Below the pieces are notes generated by a model. The model was not told the DNA's origin. It was given only the letters and a program-made list of their open reading frames with translations, and did no database searches. Position numbers and translations under genes: made by a program. Positions 33,083-40,070 of a stretch of DNA of 51,249 nt are shown here, in pieces. How positions within the stretch are numbered: position 1 is the stretch's first letter; each line of letters begins with the position of its first letter. The stretch is from the NCBI GenBank assembly GCA_029863005.1, contig JAOTWF010000011.1, positions 1-51,249 of the forward strand, read 5' to 3'. Origin of the DNA: Gammaproteobacteria bacterium (GTDB lineage: Bacteria; Pseudomonadota; Gammaproteobacteria; Acidiferrobacterales; Sulfurifustaceae).

Positions 33083-33578
33083 ATTCTCCGCAACAGGTCA
33101 GTGTTGTGGAAAACGGCGAGGCAGGCGGCGGCCAGCGGTCCTGGGGACGGGAACCCGGGTGGGGTTCCATGGCCCAGACATATGCAGAGATACGCCTAAC
33201 GCTCCTTGTCATTTGATGGAGGATCGTCCCCAGGAGGATGTCCGCCAGCCGGAGGTCACCTAATGTGACGTTTTCTGTGTATCAAAATCCCGGCGAGGAT
33301 ACATTGATGCACATCAAGCGGCATACTGCCAATGTCGATATTCCCGTTGCTGACCAGGCGCATGTTAAACCTGTGGAACCCACAAATATTTTGGATCTAC
33401 CTTAGGCCGTGCCAGACTGAGGCCGCGACTTGCCACCACAGGCTCGATAACGCGCCACCCGTCGGGTTGCCCGCCCCAACTATCGATATACCGCGCCAGG
33501 ATTATGGGCCCAGGCCTATACTTATTTGTGCGGCACCCCTTGCTGCAACGCAACTTTTTGAATGGACAAGGATGTCCT
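33083..33578. other. 496-base intergenic region containing nested inverted repeats
   Basis: No convincing gene lies here; open frames lack ribosome binding sites. From 33125 to 33250 there are inverted repeats set inside each other: GGCGG near 33125 against CCGCC near 33243, an exact 11-bp pair (33139-33149 with 33225-33235), and inside it a 7-bp hairpin (33150-33156 with 33162-33168). A short hairpin with a T-rich tail (33255-33276) follows on the plus strand. The right part, to 33578, carries AAGGA at 33568-33572 as the ribosome binding site of the zinc-ribbon gene. Confidence 0.6.
33125..33276 (+). ncRNA. candidate structured RNA element
   Basis: The nested pairing (outer 5 bp, central exact 11 bp, inner 7-bp hairpin with 5-base loop) followed by the GTCAC/GTGAC hairpin and TTTTCT at 33255-33276 has the look of a small structured transcript with a weak terminator, read on the plus strand. 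Several GGA triplets stand near 33218-33253. I could not match it to 6S RNA, SRP RNA, RNase P RNA, tmRNA or a riboswitch class I know. It could also be a leader of the zinc-ribbon gene 300 bases on, or DNA-level symmetry. Confidence 0.3.
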
Positions 33579-34535
33579 GTGACGGCAATGAGCATATTCC
33601 AGAAAATCTGTCCCGGTTGCATGATTACTCTGCCGTTGGATACGCACGTCTGCGCCTGCGGTCACCCATTTGATCATGACGATACGGAAGGATCTCTTTC
33701 CTCAGAAGAGATCCGGGTTAAGGCCGAGGAACTCTACGAAAGTTATCTGGCGGCGCGTGTTGAACAGGCTACGAGCAGCGTCATGTCGGCCCAGGCCGAA
33801 TTCGCGCGCGATCCGGAAAGTCCCGTAAAATCCCAGCGTGTCGCTGACGCGATTCAGGAGTCGGAAGCGGCGCGTGTCGCTCTGTCCGAACAATCCGCCC
33901 GCGTGCGAGAATTGAAAAAGGCCTTGCCGGCGGTATCGCCACCTCCCCGCCCCTTGCCGCTTTCCGTTGCGCCAAAAAAACTTCCTACACAATTGAAAAC
34001 CGTCCCGGCACCCACCCGCGCCCGGACGATGGCCAGGGCCGTTATGGTTGCTGCAAGTTTATCGATCTCTGCGCCGGTGCGTTCAAAACAGATTCCGCGG
34101 AAAAGTATTCCAGTCCCGCATGAGAAAAAACTTGTTCCCACTCCCGTGACGATATCACCGAAAGATCTATTGCCACCGGTCCAGAGCAAGACCCCGAACA
34201 CGGCCTTCCGTCAGGCGCAGGCGGCCAAGGCTGAAAAATTCCTGCATAGTGAACGAAAAACGGAATCCGAGATACCGAAAAATAACAAAATCCAGGCTGA
34301 CAAACCAAAGGTAAAGCCGGAACCACTTCCCCCAAATCCGGTATTCACCAAGTCCGCGCCTCGCTTGCTGGCCTCGGACAAGAAGGAATGTCCGAACTGT
34401 ACTGCCAGTGTGGAGAGCAAAACCAATCGCTGCCGTTGCGGGTTTGAATTTTCATCAAGCGAGCAGTTAATTCCCGCGCTGAGCATGAGCGAGGAAGAGC
34501 GCGCTGAGTTCGCCAAGATATTCACTCTTCCTTAG
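33579..34535 (+). CDS. double zinc-ribbon protein with long Pro/Lys-rich linker
   Basis: This 318-residue protein has one zinc ribbon at each end: CPGC plus CACG at about residues 11-29 and CPNC plus CRCG near 272-290. A helical, Ala/Glu-rich segment (about 45-110, ELYESYLAARVEQATSSVMS) is followed by a Pro/Lys-rich low-complexity linker (about 115-265) holding FRQAQAAKAEKFLHS. It is a longer paralog of the protein at 39471-40070, with the same order of parts. No signal peptide or membrane segment is seen, so it should be cytoplasmic. GTG at 33579 is chosen because AAGGA lies six bases upstream and the N-terminus then matches the paralog in length. I do not recognise a named family; function is unknown. 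Confidence 0.8.
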   Translation: MTAMSIFQKICPGCMITLPLDTHVCACGHPFDHDDTEGSLSSEEIRVKAEELYESYLAARVEQATSSVMSAQAEFARDPESPVKSQRVADAIQESEAARVALSEQSARVRELKKALPAVSPPPRPLPLSVAPKKLPTQLKTVPAPTRARTMARAVMVAASLSISAPVRSKQIPRKSIPVPHEKKLVPTPVTISPKDLLPPVQSKTPNTAFRQAQAAKAEKFLHSERKTESEIPKNNKIQADKPKVKPEPLPPNPVFTKSAPRLLASDKKECPNCTASVESKTNRCRCGFEFSSSEQLIPALSMSEEERAEFAKIFTLP

Positions 34536-34622
34536 ATCTGCATCAAGGATGCTTGGAATCAGGATTCCAGAGAGCACTCCTTCTTCTAACGGCTGGGGAA
34601 GAATAAGCGGGTAAGATGACGT

Positions 34623-35342
34623 TTAACGGGGGCGGCTCAACTTGAAATGCTCTCCGCGAAAGCTCAAGACGGCACCATCCGAAACAATATCTTCGACGCG
34701 AATCCCCTTCTCGATTTCGCTGCCCTGTTGGTATTCGCGGTTGTTGATGAACAGAATCCGCTGGGATTGATCGTGAGAATACACGTGGATGGTGACCGCC
34801 AAGGGAGGCAGGGCTCGCTGGAAATCCTGAGGCATTTCCTGCAAAAGTGGAGTGTTGTCGGTCTCCAACGGTATGGCCGCTATGGCCACGGAAGTCTCGC
34901 TTGACTCGATACGCTGGGTCTGCACAGGTTTTTTCTTGGGACGCACCGCCACAATTTTCTTTGGGGGAGGAGCAGGAACAGAAACTTTCGCCTGATCCGA
35001 TAAGTCGAATACGGGAATGATTTCTTTGGCGGAAACGGGTGAAGGGGCCGGGGTTTTCTCAACTACCGTGGAGGGTGGAGGCTCCGCTGGCGGTGCCGGC
35101 ACTGTCGCGACCGGCTCACTCGGCGCGGGTTCCACTGACATCTCGGGGAGACTCCCAACCGTGTTACGCCAGAAGAGCAGGGCAGCCGTGAGCAGCGCGA
35201 GCAATAAGACGATTCCCAAAGCGAGCCACCAGCCGCTAACCGGGAGCGAGAGCGTTATATTGTGAACGGCGCCGGTACGCGGCTTCGCTCCGGGTTGTCG
35301 CGCTTGCTGCGACTTGCGAAGGGCATCCAAAATATAAGACAT
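34623..35342 (-). CDS. gspB: GspB-like general secretion pathway protein
   Basis: This 239-residue bitopic inner-membrane protein begins MSYILDALRKSQQARQPG, the hallmark of GspB/ExeB/OutB. One transmembrane helix (about 36-57, WWLALGIVLLLALLTAALLFW) is followed by a long Pro-rich periplasmic stretch and the C-terminal GspB domain (LPPLAVTIHVYSHD through RGEHFKL). In Aeromonas the ExeA-ExeB complex helps place the type II secretin through the peptidoglycan. It follows the GspA/ExeA-like gene by two bases. No other gsp gene is present in the window. Confidence 0.88.
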   Translation of the reverse strand: MSYILDALRKSQQARQPGAKPRTGAVHNITLSLPVSGWWLALGIVLLLALLTAALLFWRNTVGSLPEMSVEPAPSEPVATVPAPPAEPPPSTVVEKTPAPSPVSAKEIIPVFDLSDQAKVSVPAPPPKKIVAVRPKKKPVQTQRIESSETSVAIAAIPLETDNTPLLQEMPQDFQRALPPLAVTIHVYSHDQSQRILFINNREYQQGSEIEKGIRVEDIVSDGAVLSFRGEHFKLSRPR

Positions 35343-35344
35343 GC

Positions 35345-37036
35345 TCAGCGCACCTCCGCCCGGGTATTGTTGGCGGTGAGGGTGGGCGATTGGCCGGTGA
35401 CATAGCTCTGCAATTTGGCAAGCGTGACCTGGCCCACCACGCCATCGGAGGCGAGACTGTGTCGGCTCTGAAATTGCATCAGTTGGGCCTGAAGATCTTT
35501 GTCGAATACGTCTTTGGCGTTTGCCGTCAGTGGCTCACCGCGGTATCGCGCCAAGGCATCCCGCAGCCAGACAACGGCTTCTCCGCGATCACCCAATCGT
35601 AATATCTCCTGTTTCGGCACCGAAGGTTTCCACAGCAACAGGTATTTCCCAAACCAGAGGCGACCCACGTCCTGCACGGCGAATTCCTGCGACAAACTCC
35701 CCATTACCAGTGACACCTTATCTGCTGCCAAGGCAGACACCAGCACATGGTGCTTGGTGCCTGTAGAGTCCTGCAATTCGATGACGGCCGGGCGGTTATG
35801 CTTGCGCAGATTGTTCCAGGTTCCAGTTTGGTAAATGCAGTGCAAACCGGCCTTCAAGGCACGTTCGCAACCGGTTGCCCCGCTCAGGGAGGCGTAATCC
35901 ATACCCCAGCGATCGAACAGATTTTTCATGGCCGTGTCAGTATCCGTCCTGGCCTCGGGATTTACGAGAGCTACCTCAACTCCGGCGGGCGTTTTCGGGG
36001 AGGTCGTCGCGGCATTGGCTTCGTCGGACGCCACCGTGACGGCCGCCGCCGATGTGGGGTCAGGCGCAGCGGACGATGCCGCGGACGGAGCGGCTGGCGC
36101 AGTCGTTTCAACGGTTGATGAAGGTTGGATCCACCGTGGCCAGCCGTACCAGAAAGACACTGCCAGCATGACGGCCAGGGCCGACCCCGCCACCAGCTTC
36201 CAGGGATTGACGCGCCTTCGGGGGATGGCACCGGAACCGAGCTCTTTCGCGGCGCGCTTGATAATGCGCACATCCACCATGTTTTCACCGTGCGTATAGG
36301 CCCCCAGCAAAGCGCGGTCGCAAAGAATGTTGATCAATCGCGGAATGCCGCCCGTGAGCACATGGGCATGGTGCAGCGCCGAGTACTTGAAAAGCAGCCG
36401 GCGTGCGCCGGCGACACGGCAGCGGTGAGCGATGTAATAGCGGGTTTCATCGTGTGTAATCGCCGCCAGGCTGTAGCGCGCCGTGATGCGCTGTGCCAAC
36501 TGGCGCAGGTCCTGCTGCGCCAGCATGTTGCTTAATTCCGGCTGACCGATCAGGATAATTTGCAGCAGTTTCTGTTTGGTGGTCTCAAGGTTGGTGAGCA
36601 GCCTGATCTGCTCCAGCACTTCCCGGCTGAGATTCTGAGCCTCATCAATGATGAGCACGGTGCGTCGGCCTTGCGCATGGGTGCGTAAAAGATGGGTATT
36701 GAGCGCATCGATCAACTGTTTGAGACTGGTGCTTTCACCGGGATAGGGCACGCGCAGTTCATCACAAATCGCGGCGACAAATTCGGATACCGTCAACACC
36801 GGGTAAAGTATCAATGCCACATCCACGCCTTCCGGGAGACGCTCGACCAGCGCCCGGATCAGGAGCGTCTTGCCCGTGCCGACTTCGCCCGTGAGCTGCA
36901 CAAATCCCCCGGCCTCGCTCAAACCGTACTGCAAATGTGCCAGCGCCTCCTGGTGCCCCCGGCTCAGGTAGAGATATTGCGGATCCGGCGGGATGGAGAA
37001 TGGGTTTTCATGCAAACCAAAATATTGGAGATACAT
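35345..37036 (-). CDS. gspA: GspA/ExeA-type AAA ATPase with peptidoglycan-binding domain
   Basis: This 563-residue protein starts MYLQYFGLHENPFSI, standard for ExeA. Its cytoplasmic AAA domain has Walker A GEVGTGKT (50-57) and Walker B VLIIDEAQ (127-134). A single transmembrane helix near residue 285-300 leads to a periplasmic part with an Ala/Thr-rich linker, a C39-like region (MKNLFDRWGMDYASL ... HHVLVSALAADK) and a C-terminal peptidoglycan-binding domain (LGDRGEAVVWLRDALARYRG ... SDGVVGQVTLAKLQSYV). With GspB it should use ATP to open or mark peptidoglycan for secretin assembly. The ATG at 37036 is preferred to one ten codons upstream by family convention. MshM-like proteins share this architecture. 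Confidence 0.92.
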   Translation of the reverse strand: MYLQYFGLHENPFSIPPDPQYLYLSRGHQEALAHLQYGLSEAGGFVQLTGEVGTGKTLLIRALVERLPEGVDVALILYPVLTVSEFVAAICDELRVPYPGESTSLKQLIDALNTHLLRTHAQGRRTVLIIDEAQNLSREVLEQIRLLTNLETTKQKLLQIILIGQPELSNMLAQQDLRQLAQRITARYSLAAITHDETRYYIAHRCRVAGARRLLFKYSALHHAHVLTGGIPRLINILCDRALLGAYTHGENMVDVRIIKRAAKELGSGAIPRRRVNPWKLVAGSALAVMLAVSFWYGWPRWIQPSSTVETTAPAAPSAASSAAPDPTSAAAVTVASDEANAATTSPKTPAGVEVALVNPEARTDTDTAMKNLFDRWGMDYASLSGATGCERALKAGLHCIYQTGTWNNLRKHNRPAVIELQDSTGTKHHVLVSALAADKVSLVMGSLSQEFAVQDVGRLWFGKYLLLWKPSVPKQEILRLGDRGEAVVWLRDALARYRGEPLTANAKDVFDKDLQAQLMQFQSRHSLASDGVVGQVTLAKLQSYVTGQSPTLTANNTRAEVR

Positions 37037-37407
37037 TATTCTGCACGCACCGGGAGTGTCTGCCATCGGCCAGCCGTCTTGCTAGCCGATGGGGGGGATG
37101 AAAAATCAGGGTATCTGTGGTCCATCATAGGAACTTCCACTTTGCTGACTGGTGTTTTCCACTGTTTCGGATAATCGAGGAGCATAAGATAACATTAATT
37201 GTGCCTGCCCGGCTCTCAAGGAATACTGCCGATTTGCCCAGTCTCGGATCACCCAAAGACGACGAAACGCGCTGTTCTTGGCCACACTATTCTCTCCGCG
37301 TGCGCCGAAGGGGCAAAAAAGACCCCCGGTTCGATTAACCGGTGGATCGGTAACTCGGGGAAACAGATAATGAAATACAGATTACACGTGAAAACAAGAC
37401 TGGGGCT
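37037..37407. other. 371-base intergenic region upstream of gspA
   Basis: Genes on both sides read leftward. No coding frame here has a good ribosome binding site or recognisable protein. The left part should contain the gspA promoter; no confident hexamers were picked. The right part holds the terminator candidate of the 62-residue protein gene at 37315-37342. Confidence 0.6.
37315..37342 (-). terminator. candidate terminator downstream of the 62-residue protein gene
   Basis: A 6-bp stem (37326-37331 and 37337-37342) with a 5-base loop is followed, on the minus strand, by five bases and then TTTTTT (37320-37315). It lies 66 bases beyond the stop at 37408. The gap between stem and T-run weakens the call. 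Confidence 0.5.
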
Positions 37408-37596
37408 TTACTGGTGGCGTCCGAGTTTGTGAACATCTTCTCCGGTAGTTTTCGCGGCCTGCACGATCTTGCGAAGATCGGCCAATTGGTCCTGGAGCGC
37501 CTTGATCGCCTCCGCCACTTCAATTGACTCCCGGCTCGTTTCGGTTTTCACCTTATTTCCCGGTTGCATCTTTGCTCCTCGCGGCGCCTGACTCAT
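37408..37596 (-). CDS. small hydrophilic protein of unknown function
   Basis: The gene encodes 62 residues from the ATG at 37596, which is preceded by AAGGAGG with four bases between, the strongest ribosome binding site in this part of the window. The first 20 residues are basic and polar (SQAPRGAKMQPGNKVK); the rest is a likely helix or coiled coil (SIEVAEAIKALQDQLADLRK). There is no signal peptide, membrane segment or cysteine. I do not recognise a family. A frame ten codons longer exists but its start lacks a ribosome site. It lies downstream of the flavoprotein gene and its tiny partner on the same strand. Confidence 0.72.
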   Translation of the reverse strand: MSQAPRGAKMQPGNKVKTETSRESIEVAEAIKALQDQLADLRKIVQAAKTTGEDVHKLGRHQ

Positions 37597-37692
37597 GTAA
37601 CCTCCTTGTACCGATCCAACCGACATGAGAGTTTTGATGCTCCCTGCGCCTGACTAGAGACGGCAAGCGTGTCCGTTCATTAAGGCGGAAAA

Positions 37693-37905
37693 TCAGTGAA
37701 AATACAAGTATAGACCGTTTCCAAGCAGAGATAGGGTGATGGCCGCCGATGTCAGACCGACAATCGTATATGGCGCTGCTCGCCTGCCATATACCCGGGC
37801 TGTGGATATCTGATGAGACAGAGATGCGACAGGTGTGCGTTTTTTGCATATGCTTTTCTGGCTGTTTTCTTTGATACATAAGACTTGATTCGTCCATATG
37901 CTCAT
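37693..37905 (-). CDS. tiny membrane protein coupled to the flavoprotein gene (candidate)
   Basis: The frame gives 70 residues from the ATG at 37905, which overlaps the flavoprotein stop as ATGA. The N-terminal half is basic and polar with two cysteines (VLCIKENSQKSICKK); the C-terminal half has one hydrophobic helix (YTIVGLTSAAITLSLLGNGL, about 47-66) and ends soon after. A tail-anchored small protein is therefore plausible. A competing frame (37553-37897) overlaps it and has no such coupling. With no recognisable homology, the call rests on the overlap and the single membrane segment. Confidence 0.42.
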   Translation of the reverse strand: MSIWTNQVLCIKENSQKSICKKRTPVASLSHQISTARVYGRRAAPYTIVGLTSAAITLSLLGNGLYLYFH

Positions 37906-39245
37906 TCTTTCAGCACACACTTGCGATAGAGGTCCCTGAGTATTCCCTCCGGATCATATTTCTTTTTCAAACGATCATAAATCGGTTTGTTATAAAGTTT
38001 CCAGAATTGTTCAAAAGTGAAATAGGAATCCGAATACAATGATTTCATTCCCCCGAGGGCTATGACCTTTTCCTCAATCTGCCGGTTGTAAAACCCCGGT
38101 GATAATTTTTCACGACCACGCACTGCATCCCAGAAGCCGAAATTGATGTAGAGTTTCCGTGGATCCAAACGATACAGATCAAAACGGGCTGTTTCGTCGT
38201 AGGCGCGGGTGGGGCAGATCCAAACCGGCATGAAACGGATGGCAGTATGATAAAAAGCCAGGAACTCCACGGCATGCTCGATGGGTATTTCGACATCCTG
38301 GATTATGGATTCGCTGTGATAGCCGAGCAGGCGTTCGATCTTCCGGCTCAACTTCCAGCGACTGTTGAGCCGCATGATCTTCGTGTAAGTCACCGAGTTG
38401 AGGTGGCGTTTACCGAAGAGTCGGCGAATAATCGGATTCTGGGCAAGGAGGTTCTTTGAGCACCAGAACCAATCTGTATCCCAGCGCCAGAGATAATCCT
38501 CGGTCGTGAGAAAATCCTCAGCTCGTACACGCAGCGATTTGTAATAGATGTTTTTATATGTGTAATCGCTGGTATAAGGCGCCTCATCAACGAATTGACC
38601 AAGCGTGATCACCATCTCTCGCTGGCTGAAAACGACACCATCGACAAAATCGAGATCAATTTGTTCGCATTTATCTTCGAGATCGGCAAAAAAATCCGCC
38701 GGGCGGGTATGTCTAATATGGGTCAGCTTCACGTATTTCTTCACAGGAACGGTTTTGGCTTTTATCGAAAGGCAGTAACCGAGCGTCCCGTAGGAATTGG
38801 GGAATCCGTAAAACAGGTCGCGGTATTCATTCTCAGGCGTGCAATTCACCACGCGACCATCGCTAAGCAGTATTTCCATCTCCTGTACGGTCTCGTGCAC
38901 CAATCCGTAGCGGAAAGACGACGATTCGATGCCGCATCCGGCCGTCGCCCCGCCGATGGTGATGGATTTCAGCTGCGGAACGACCGCCGGCATGACGTTG
39001 TGTTGGAGGCATTCAGCCACAAGTTTCACATAGGGGGTCATGCCTTCCACGACAACCTGTGATTTCTCCTGGTCGACGTGCAGCACCTCATTGAAGTCAC
39101 GCACATCCAGTCTGTTTGAAGAAATGGCACGACGGTCACGGAACAGGTTGGAAGTTGTTTTTTCAAGGCGGATATTCCCGCCCCGGGCGGCGCGCAGCAC
39201 TTCCTTCAGACGCCGGGTTTTTTCCGTGTGCTGGGTCATGTCCAT
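37902..39245 (-). CDS. FAD-binding oxidoreductase, DHCR24 (delta-24-sterol reductase)-like
   Basis: This 447-residue protein is a PCMH/VAO-type flavoprotein. The FAD-binding_4 domain spans about 20-190 with SSNRLDVRDFNEVLHVDQEK, VVEGMTPYVKLVAECL and the pyrophosphate/flavin loop LKSITIGGATAGCGIESSSFRYG. The C-terminal region (WFWCSKNLLAQNP, IQDVEIPIEHAVEFLAFYH, LYINFGFWDAVRG) and the final LKKKYDPEGILRDLYRKCV match DHCR24-like reductases found in bacteria. In eukaryotes DHCR24 reduces the sterol side-chain double bond; the bacterial substrate is unknown and need not be a sterol. The ATG at 39245 is one of two close starts (39239 is the other). It lies between the two zinc-ribbon paralogs. Confidence 0.88.
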   Translation of the reverse strand: MDMTQHTEKTRRLKEVLRAARGGNIRLEKTTSNLFRDRRAISSNRLDVRDFNEVLHVDQEKSQVVVEGMTPYVKLVAECLQHNVMPAVVPQLKSITIGGATAGCGIESSSFRYGLVHETVQEMEILLSDGRVVNCTPENEYRDLFYGFPNSYGTLGYCLSIKAKTVPVKKYVKLTHIRHTRPADFFADLEDKCEQIDLDFVDGVVFSQREMVITLGQFVDEAPYTSDYTYKNIYYKSLRVRAEDFLTTEDYLWRWDTDWFWCSKNLLAQNPIIRRLFGKRHLNSVTYTKIMRLNSRWKLSRKIERLLGYHSESIIQDVEIPIEHAVEFLAFYHTAIRFMPVWICPTRAYDETARFDLYRLDPRKLYINFGFWDAVRGREKLSPGFYNRQIEEKVIALGGMKSLYSDSYFTFEQFWKLYNKPIYDRLKKKYDPEGILRDLYRKCVLKE

Positions 39246-39470
39246 ATCACCGTCACGATACTGAAAATGCCACCTTGGTGCCAATCTCAATCAGGCGTAA
39301 GCTGTTGTAACAACAGACCAGACACTACTGGTCATCCTTCCCGGGTCTGCTCCGGCTCGTCGTCTGTCGTGTTTAGACTCGGCGAAAACGTATTCGGCGT
39401 CTATAATTGATTTACGGCCTCGGATAATTTGTTTCAGGAAGCTGGGAGACTTAAAGACAGGGAAATCCTC

Positions 39471-40070
39471 ATGAGGACTTACAGCATTTATCAGAAGCCT
39501 TGTCCGGCTTGTGGTGCCGTGGTGGCTGTCGAAACGCAGAACTGCACTTGCGGATATGGTTTTGACTCTATGAGCACGGACGAACGGCTCCCCGAAGAAC
39601 AGGCCCTGCTAGATGAGGAACTGTTCCAGGCCTATCTGCTGGCGCGTATTGACCAGGCCGTGGAGACGGTGGAATACGCGCGTGCCGAATTTGCCGCCGA
39701 AACTTCCAATCGCCGCAAGGCCGATAAACTGATCTTGGCCGTGCAGGAAGCCCTCGATTTGCGTGACGAGCGTGACGCGCAGACGTTGAAAATAGCGCAA
39801 CTGCGAGAATCCCTGCCCGCCAAATCGGAAGCCCCGTCTTTGTCGGCAGAAGCCACCGAGGCCTTCCGGGCGCAACAGGCGGCCAAAGCAGAAAAAATCA
39901 TGGAGTCATTTACCAACACCCAAACCAAAACCTGCCCACACTGCAAAACGGTGCTTCCGGTCTCGTCGGCCCTTTGTCTATGCGGATACATTTACGCGCG
40001 CAATCACTTCATGCTGCCGCGAGCCGTTGACAGATCAACGCGCGGCGAAATTTACCGCACTAAAGATTAG
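39471..40070 (+). CDS. double zinc-ribbon protein, short paralog
   Basis: This 199-residue protein has zinc ribbons at both ends: CPAC plus CTCG at about 11-29 and CPHC plus CLCG near 158-176. Between them is a helical segment (ELFQAYLLARIDQAVETVEY ... LKIAQLRESLP) and the motif FRAQQAAKAEKIMES. All these parts align in order with the longer protein at 33579-34535, which adds a long linker. AGGGA lies seven bases before the ATG at 39471. No signal peptide is present. The fold suggests nucleic-acid or protein binding; nothing more can be said. It diverges from the flavoprotein gene and converges with the PilZ gene. Confidence 0.85.
   Translation: MRTYSIYQKPCPACGAVVAVETQNCTCGYGFDSMSTDERLPEEQALLDEELFQAYLLARIDQAVETVEYARAEFAAETSNRRKADKLILAVQEALDLRDERDAQTLKIAQLRESLPAKSEAPSLSAEATEAFRAQQAAKAEKIMESFTNTQTKTCPHCKTVLPVSSALCLCGYIYARNHFMLPRAVDRSTRGEIYRTKD

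Follow-up and report, generated by a model that had tools for sequence, protein, structure and literature searches.

The stretch analysed here (the window, 51,249 nt of a gammaproteobacterial contig) carries two genes whose products have a zinc ribbon at each end and which lie a few kilobases apart. Both belong to an unnamed protein family that appears to be specific to the order Acidiferrobacterales and nearly universal in it. The reading that we tentatively favour is that the family is a soluble tether, or adaptor, particular to this order. It would act in the stress phase between two partners, with nucleic acid or nucleoprotein as the probable partner class.

The gene pair and its family

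The two genes and the parts of their products are as follows.

33579 to 34535, forward strand: long paralogue, 318 amino acids (aa), GTG start (start codon aligned across nine genomes)
33609 to 33662, forward strand: N-terminal zinc ribbon of the long copy (C11, C14, C25, C27, G28; PF10571 match and alignment)
33702 to 33923, forward strand: predicted helical hairpin of the long copy, residues 42-115 (block pLDDT 96-98 over residues 51-110)
34206 to 34238, forward strand: FRQAQAAKAEK helix of the long copy within the disordered linker (helix 208-229 in the predicted model)
34389 to 34442, forward strand: C-terminal zinc ribbon of the long copy (PF10571 match)
39471 to 40070, forward strand: short paralogue, 199 aa, ATG start (open reading frame, ORF)
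39501 to 39554, forward strand: N-terminal zinc ribbon of the short copy (PF10571 match and alignment)
39591 to 39812, forward strand: predicted helical hairpin of the short copy, residues 41-114 (block pLDDT 90-96 over residues 51-110)
39864 to 39896, forward strand: FRAQQAAKAEK helix of the short copy (helix 130-148 in the predicted model)
39933 to 39986, forward strand: C-terminal zinc ribbon of the short copy (PF10571 match and alignment)

An earlier, sequence-only reading of this DNA had described the pair as paralogues with a ribbon at each end. Both ORFs exist, and the motifs it named (ELYESYLAAR against ELFQAYLLAR, AAKAEK, and CPxC..CxCG twice) are present as described. By BLASTP the heads are 36% identical across 119 N-terminal residues (E 2e-22). 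Pairwise BLAST of the long against the short protein gave no end-to-end alignment of the C-terminal parts. A profile of the short C-terminal half matched 9/9 long tails at E 2.2e-13 to 1.5e-4 (1.7e-8 for the window copy), where the best of 2,700 shuffles reached E 0.041. These comparisons indicate that the window proteins are paralogues and that their C-terminal halves are related too.

The ribbons are also borne out by PF10571 (UPF0547), which matches two stretches in each protein, with totals of 40.1 and 37.4 bits at a Pfam cut-off of 29. By analogy with this ribbon family, both proteins would bind zinc through their ribbons. The long copy owes its extra length, as had been noted, to a Pro/Lys-rich linker of some 150 residues, made up of 19% P, 12% K and 11% A among others and carrying a net charge of +19. 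In the nine aligned genomes of the window's genus the long-copy start is GTG in 8/9 and ATG in 1/9 (G016), and CAAGGA is aligned upstream of it in 9/9.

The same reading knew of no named family with this layout, and our searches agree. Searches of Pfam, NCBIfam and PDB sequences returned no family model for the whole chain; they gave ribbons, or weak coiled-coil and chance matches, and in NCBIfam nothing came near a cut-off for the window proteins. UPF0547 (Pfam-A, E 0.05) is matched by 23 of 25 members; outside the ribbons, no Pfam-A family among the 23 listed is common to the 25. No paper on this family was found in the open-licence literature, either by order or genus with zinc ribbon or among the titles listed. 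The parts (ribbons, a helical hairpin) are ordinary; the family is unnamed.

To describe the distribution, we searched genomes of the order and samples of the class and phylum. With a single protein as query, 20/20 genomes of the window's taxonomic family and 53/57 of the order matched. A broader profile recovered three of the four misses, so that 56/57 order genomes matched, with 1-6 matched stretches each; one of the recovered genomes, G035, has a ribbon-length match only. In the class sample of 369 genomes ten matched. Four of these are the order's own and match over most of the model, and the other six cover 30-37 model positions, that is, the length of a ribbon. In the phylum sample of 398 genomes 34 matched, namely the window's genome and 33 others whose stretches span at most 63 model positions without the hairpin; one row spans model positions 8-222 over just 84 bases. 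At most five or six candidates were scored per genome in these two samples, so a weak full-length relative outside the order could be missed. From these searches, the family appears to be order-specific and nearly universal in Acidiferrobacterales.

Because the family is nearly universal in the order and only its ribbons were found in the samples beyond it, it can be taken as a marker of the order, and it probably serves something that the members share. The window's genus takes in metagenome-assembled genomes (MAGs) named Sulfuricaulis, whose order at NCBI is Acidiferrobacterales. Of the six close loci with names, two are from Sulfuricaulis MAGs, two from 'Candidatus Muproteobacteria' MAGs and two from MAGs whose name goes no further than Gammaproteobacteria. 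The sole order genome with no family match, G053, also gave no match to HtpG or to a gene lying beside the family in the sister genome G054, and absence from the assembly cannot be told from true loss there. At E 0.001 the short protein had no tblastn match in 72,556 plasmid or 50,697 phage records, and transfer by plasmid or phage was rejected for lack of such a match.

A tree was built from 61 heads over 122 columns, after six hits lacking the head motif had been excluded. The nine short and the nine long copies of the genus form separate clades, supported at 100/97 each. The tree thus indicates that the gene had been duplicated before the genus arose. A recent tandem duplication of a local gene was ruled out, since each copy falls in its own clade in all nine genus genomes. 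The sequence-only reading had proposed duplication within a lineage-specific locus. The duplication stands, but it is not a recent local one, and 'lineage-specific locus' is too narrow because the family spans the order (56/57 genomes). Several other genera of the same taxonomic family carry more than one copy, some of them close together (G006, G008, G010, G019). Support is good for 20 of the 58 inner branches and 21 are open, which leaves the earlier sequence of events unsettled. The ratio dN/dS, from a simple Nei-Gojobori script on four genome pairs per copy, ranged over 0.14-0.23 in the short copy and 0.24-0.28 in the long one, which points to purifying selection on both.

Conserved ends and a variable linker

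The typical layout is an N-terminal ribbon, a predicted hairpin of two helices of about 35 residues, a linker of variable length, predicted to be disordered, that holds a FRxxQAAKAEK helix, and a C-terminal ribbon. Across 28 aligned members the four cysteines and the glycine of the N-terminal ribbon are invariant, as are F31, Y55, L56, R59, Q62 and Q136. Y55, L56, R59 and Q62 sit in the first hairpin helix, and Q136 lies in the FRxxQAAKAEK motif. In a second alignment, of 25 members from six families of the order (f3 not included), the ribbon cysteines and glycine and Y55, L56, R59 and Q62 are again invariant.

We also counted the parts by pattern in a wider set. Hits lacking the head motif were passed over, which left 66 distinct heads; removal of two end-cut members and four with runs of N gave 60 clean members. 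The cysteines are kept in most of these relatives. Of the two findings that, by the sequence-only reading, would have told against it (a strong whole-chain hit to a characterised family, and cysteines lost in orthologues), neither was seen. The N-terminal ribbon was recognised in 57/60, 47 with a CxC second knuckle and 10 with CxxC, a spacing that still leaves four possible ligands. At least one C-terminal ribbon was present in 55/60 (two in eight members), and the FRxxQ motif in 45/60. A C-terminal tail, LPxLxLS, had been taken for conserved; the pattern occurs in only 25 of the 55 members with a C-terminal ribbon and was not used.

What lies between the conserved ends varies widely. The distance from head to C-terminal ribbon runs from 15 to 480 residues across the clean members, and the linkers show no conservation of sequence. 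A positive net charge was nevertheless seen in the linkers of 26 of 27 long members (250 aa or longer, C-terminal ribbon present, linker of at least 60 residues). Conserved ends and a conserved helix face, joined by a strap that mostly keeps its charge and neither its sequence nor its length, fit a tether between two partners. With these ends and this range of distances, the family is a natural series for the study of two-ended linker proteins.

AlphaFold2 models of both copies were made with 14 alignment rows. The predicted hairpin helices cover residues 41-76 and 81-114 in the short copy (36 and 34 residues) and 42-77 and 82-115 in the long copy, and the hairpin block has pLDDT 90-98 over residues 51-110 in the two models. 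The linker is of low confidence in both, with a separate helix over the FRxxQ motif, and mean pLDDT is 72.9 and 65.8. The models thus predict a hairpin and a disordered linker. A tetratricopeptide repeat (TPR) reading of the DPxN loop was dropped because TPR helices are shorter than the 36 and 34 residues predicted here.

Foldseek with the short model gave 316 matches at E <= 10 and none at E <= 0.001. Generic helical hairpins filled the VIA-align list for that model, the best with Z 11.7; a level of about 13 is advised for helical models. No DksA, Gre, HP0958 or CT398 entry was among the Foldseek and VIA-align matches listed, which is not evidence against those folds.

DksA pairs a coiled-coil hairpin with a zinc ribbon. 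The hairpin of the window family might accordingly act as a coiled coil of the DksA/GreA type in the secondary channel of RNA polymerase, with the ribbon as globular anchor. Arms of 36 and 34 residues and a tip resembling D-P-x-N/D-x-x-K in many members speak for this. Against it stand the order of the parts, with the ribbon ahead of the hairpin, and a tip acid that some members lack. We regard the idea as improbable.

Several known proteins share some of the parts. The UPF0547 model has 26 positions, so that the hairpin, linker, helix and two-ended layout all fall outside it. The ribbons of the ribosomal proteins eL40 and bL32 match the profile in PDB sequences, weakly (E 0.003 and E 0.42) and as one ribbon only. 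HP0958, CT398 and MSMEG_4306 couple a long coiled coil to a zinc ribbon, as the window family does. We take this type to be DUF164 (PF02591) and HP0958 to be FlgZ. No DUF164/HP0958-like model is among the 23 Pfam-A families listed for the 25 members at E 0.05. In proteins of the HP0958/CT398 type the coil is N-terminal and a single ribbon C-terminal, whereas in the window family a ribbon (residues 11-28) precedes the hairpin (41-114) and a second follows the linker. Although the order of the parts differs, this coiled coil with ribbon appears, by analogy, to be the closest architecture in the literature consulted. HP0958 and CT398 bind RpoN and regulators of the export ATPase, and HP0958 also binds mRNA, according to passages of PMC5947703.

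Promoter boxes and the proposed tether

A short box precedes each gene of the pair.

33516 to 33523, forward strand: CTATACTT box, sigma-S-like -10, upstream of the long copy (exact in 9/9 long orthologues of the genus)
39401 to 39408, forward strand: CTATAATT box upstream of the short copy, one mismatch to CTATACTT (upstream alignment)

We compared 57 upstream regions, keeping members with a recognisable N-terminal ribbon and head motif and at least 120 bases upstream, and removing the others. Exact CTATACTT occurs in 15/18 regions of the genus and in 18/57 overall; with at most one mismatch the count is 26/57. Among 343 control genes of the same loci it was found in 1/343 exactly and in 8/343 with at most one mismatch; the controls are ORFs of 250 aa or more that were called mechanically, and some of their starts may be misplaced. 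Shuffles gave 0.25% and 4.2% respectively. The genus sequences are related, so their boxes are not independent events. A TTGACA-like -35 box was not clearly beyond shuffles in these regions (mean 3.44 against 3.73 mismatches). A passage of PMC3923258 gives the sigma-38 -10 box as CTAtacT with no distinctive -35, and one in PMC5650638 gives it as KCTAYRCTTAA. The CTATACTT box, with no -35 beside it, fits the sigma-S promoters described in those passages. RpoS scored over the cut-off in 13 of the 14 genomes examined. Both genes of the pair seem to be transcribed separately, each as a unit of its own.

Upstream of the long copy, within 33400-33523, lies a further block of roughly CCACCTGTCGG..GGCCCCA.A.ATCG, judged by eye to be conserved in nine genomes. 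It stands about 30-45 nt before the -10 box and could be an activator site or the end of a neighbouring unit.

The promoter box and the linker charge also bear on a different role, in which the proteins would protect the nucleoid or DNA in stationary phase by means of a histone-like linker with ribbons. Most long members have positive linkers rich in P, A and K, and the genus has the sigma-S-like promoter. There is a precedent in FA519 of Filifactor alocis, a zinc-ribbon protein of 225 aa that binds zinc and is described as forming large DNA complexes (PMC8579941). Like the window pair it was uncharacterised, and passages of that paper tie it to oxidative stress and DNA; we compared the proteins by description only. 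By the same passages FA519 has a single C-terminal ribbon, where the window pair has one at each end. FA519 indicates that an uncharacterised zinc-ribbon protein can turn out to be zinc-binding and linked to stress and DNA. The short copy, with its pI of 5.4 and short linker, does not suit such protection, which we hold to be somewhat unlikely.

We return to the tether. The N-terminal ribbon and the helical hairpin would together make up a rigid head, and the invariant Y-L-x-x-R-x-x-Q face of its first helix would be where it docks on one conserved partner. From there a mostly disordered and usually basic linker, with the FRxxQAAKAEK helix embedded in it, would lead to the C-terminal ribbon, which would grip another partner. 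Since the linker is positive and the ends are ribbons, the best candidate for at least one of the two is nucleic acid or a nucleoprotein, which could be the nucleoid, the ribosome or RNA polymerase. Within the window's genus each copy would be made from a promoter of its own, probably in stationary phase or under stress through sigma-S. A more specific form of the proposal makes the family an unnamed core protein of the order: a stress-phase tether with a zinc ribbon at either end and a basic, disordered strap free to change in length. It would connect the nucleoid or the ribosome with some other machine, and duplication in the Sulfuricaulis genus would have given it two forms, the short one acidic and the long one basic. 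In that full form we consider it unlikely.

A number of results weigh against the tether. By pattern matching, 3 of the 60 clean members have no recognisable N-terminal ribbon, 5 no C-terminal ribbon and 15 no FRxxQ motif, so a two-ended grip is not universal. The linker has a net charge of -11 in the member at locus L086 and of only +2 in that at L100, and the pI of the short copy is on the acid side. Ribbons bind proteins too. The models have pTM 0.38 and 0.33, values so low that the arrangement of head, linker helix and C-terminal ribbon cannot be read from them. As to stress, exact CTATACTT outside the genus is found in 3/39 regions, all in the same taxonomic family, so control by sigma-S can be proposed just for the window's genus and a few relatives. 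The sigma-70 -10 box is moreover similar to that of sigma-38, according to a passage of PMC3923258.

Genes around the pair

The 4.9 kb between the copies hold three large genes, assigned by Pfam, and two small ORFs of 77 and 114 aa. None of the three large genes, on which the statement rests, is a mobile gene.

34623 to 35342, reverse strand: GspB (T2SSB, PF16537), convergent neighbour, judged outside the system (Pfam)
35345 to 37066, reverse strand: GspA/ExeA-like ATPase, neighbour only (Pfam)
37902 to 39290, reverse strand: FAD_binding_4 oxidase, neighbour in 19/41 loci (Pfam)

We surveyed the neighbours in 41 loci holding a family member, counting a gene as close when it lay within 700 bp. 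The sequence-only reading had called any link to the genes between the copies an inference and had suggested a survey of co-occurrence with gspAB. If such a link held, the pair could be accessory proteins of type II secretion working with GspA and GspB. gspB is close to a family gene in 8/41 loci. Of the 23 genomes in which GspB scores above the cut-off, 14 have it convergent with a family gene no more than 3.3 kb away on one contig. Those 14 are 9/9 of the genus, 4/5 of f6 and one of f7. The adjacency thus spans three families and is old. It is nonetheless positional and not obligate. The orientation is convergent in 8/8 close cases. Among the 34 genomes with no GspB above the cut-off, 33 still match the family, including all 18 of f2 (G035 by a ribbon-length match only), and this rules out an obligate gspAB link and the idea of a cassette with these genes. 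In 9 of the 23 GspB genomes gspB does not adjoin a family gene on the same contig, although G048 and G056, where it stands at a contig start, are not judgeable. A role in type II secretion is very doubtful on these counts.

A gene of the HtpG cluster, whose representative matches PF00183, is present in 10/41 loci and close in 9/41. A DnaJ-like gene, named from its first residues alone, is close in 4/41. DnaJ zinc centres bind clients, and the pair might likewise be co-chaperones of HtpG or of a DnaJ-type protein, with ribbons that bind clients. G053, which has no match to either the family or HtpG, would suit this. Its third, flanking gene is unmatched too, which makes a gap in the assembly no less probable than joint loss. 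The orientations vary (convergent, divergent, same). The closed genome G011 and the drafts G015 and G016 keep both copies with no HtpG match, and an obligate HtpG link was ruled out by them. We give the co-chaperone idea little chance.

Because the family is kept where GspB or HtpG has no match over the cut-off, these neighbours look like inherited gene order around an independent gene. The FAD oxidase is close in 14/41 loci, purB is present in 16/41 and ilvD in 14/41.

Some smaller observations were made in the same loci. The FAD_binding_4 oxidase at 37902-39290 matches no closer Pfam family, and its orientation to the ribbon genes varies across the 19 loci. In the window's genome HSP90 is represented only by a contig-end fragment (G000:C121:24-416), against none in three sister genomes; it may be real or contamination. 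Two genus genomes carry a PAS-GGDEF-EAL protein on the gspB side of the long ribbon gene (L063:5766-8231 by Pfam, and L069:11246 by membership of the same cluster). In four f2 loci (L083, L084, L086 and L101) the ribbon gene is near a DnaJ-like gene, with an ORF of about 102-112 aa between them, which we presume may be CbpM.

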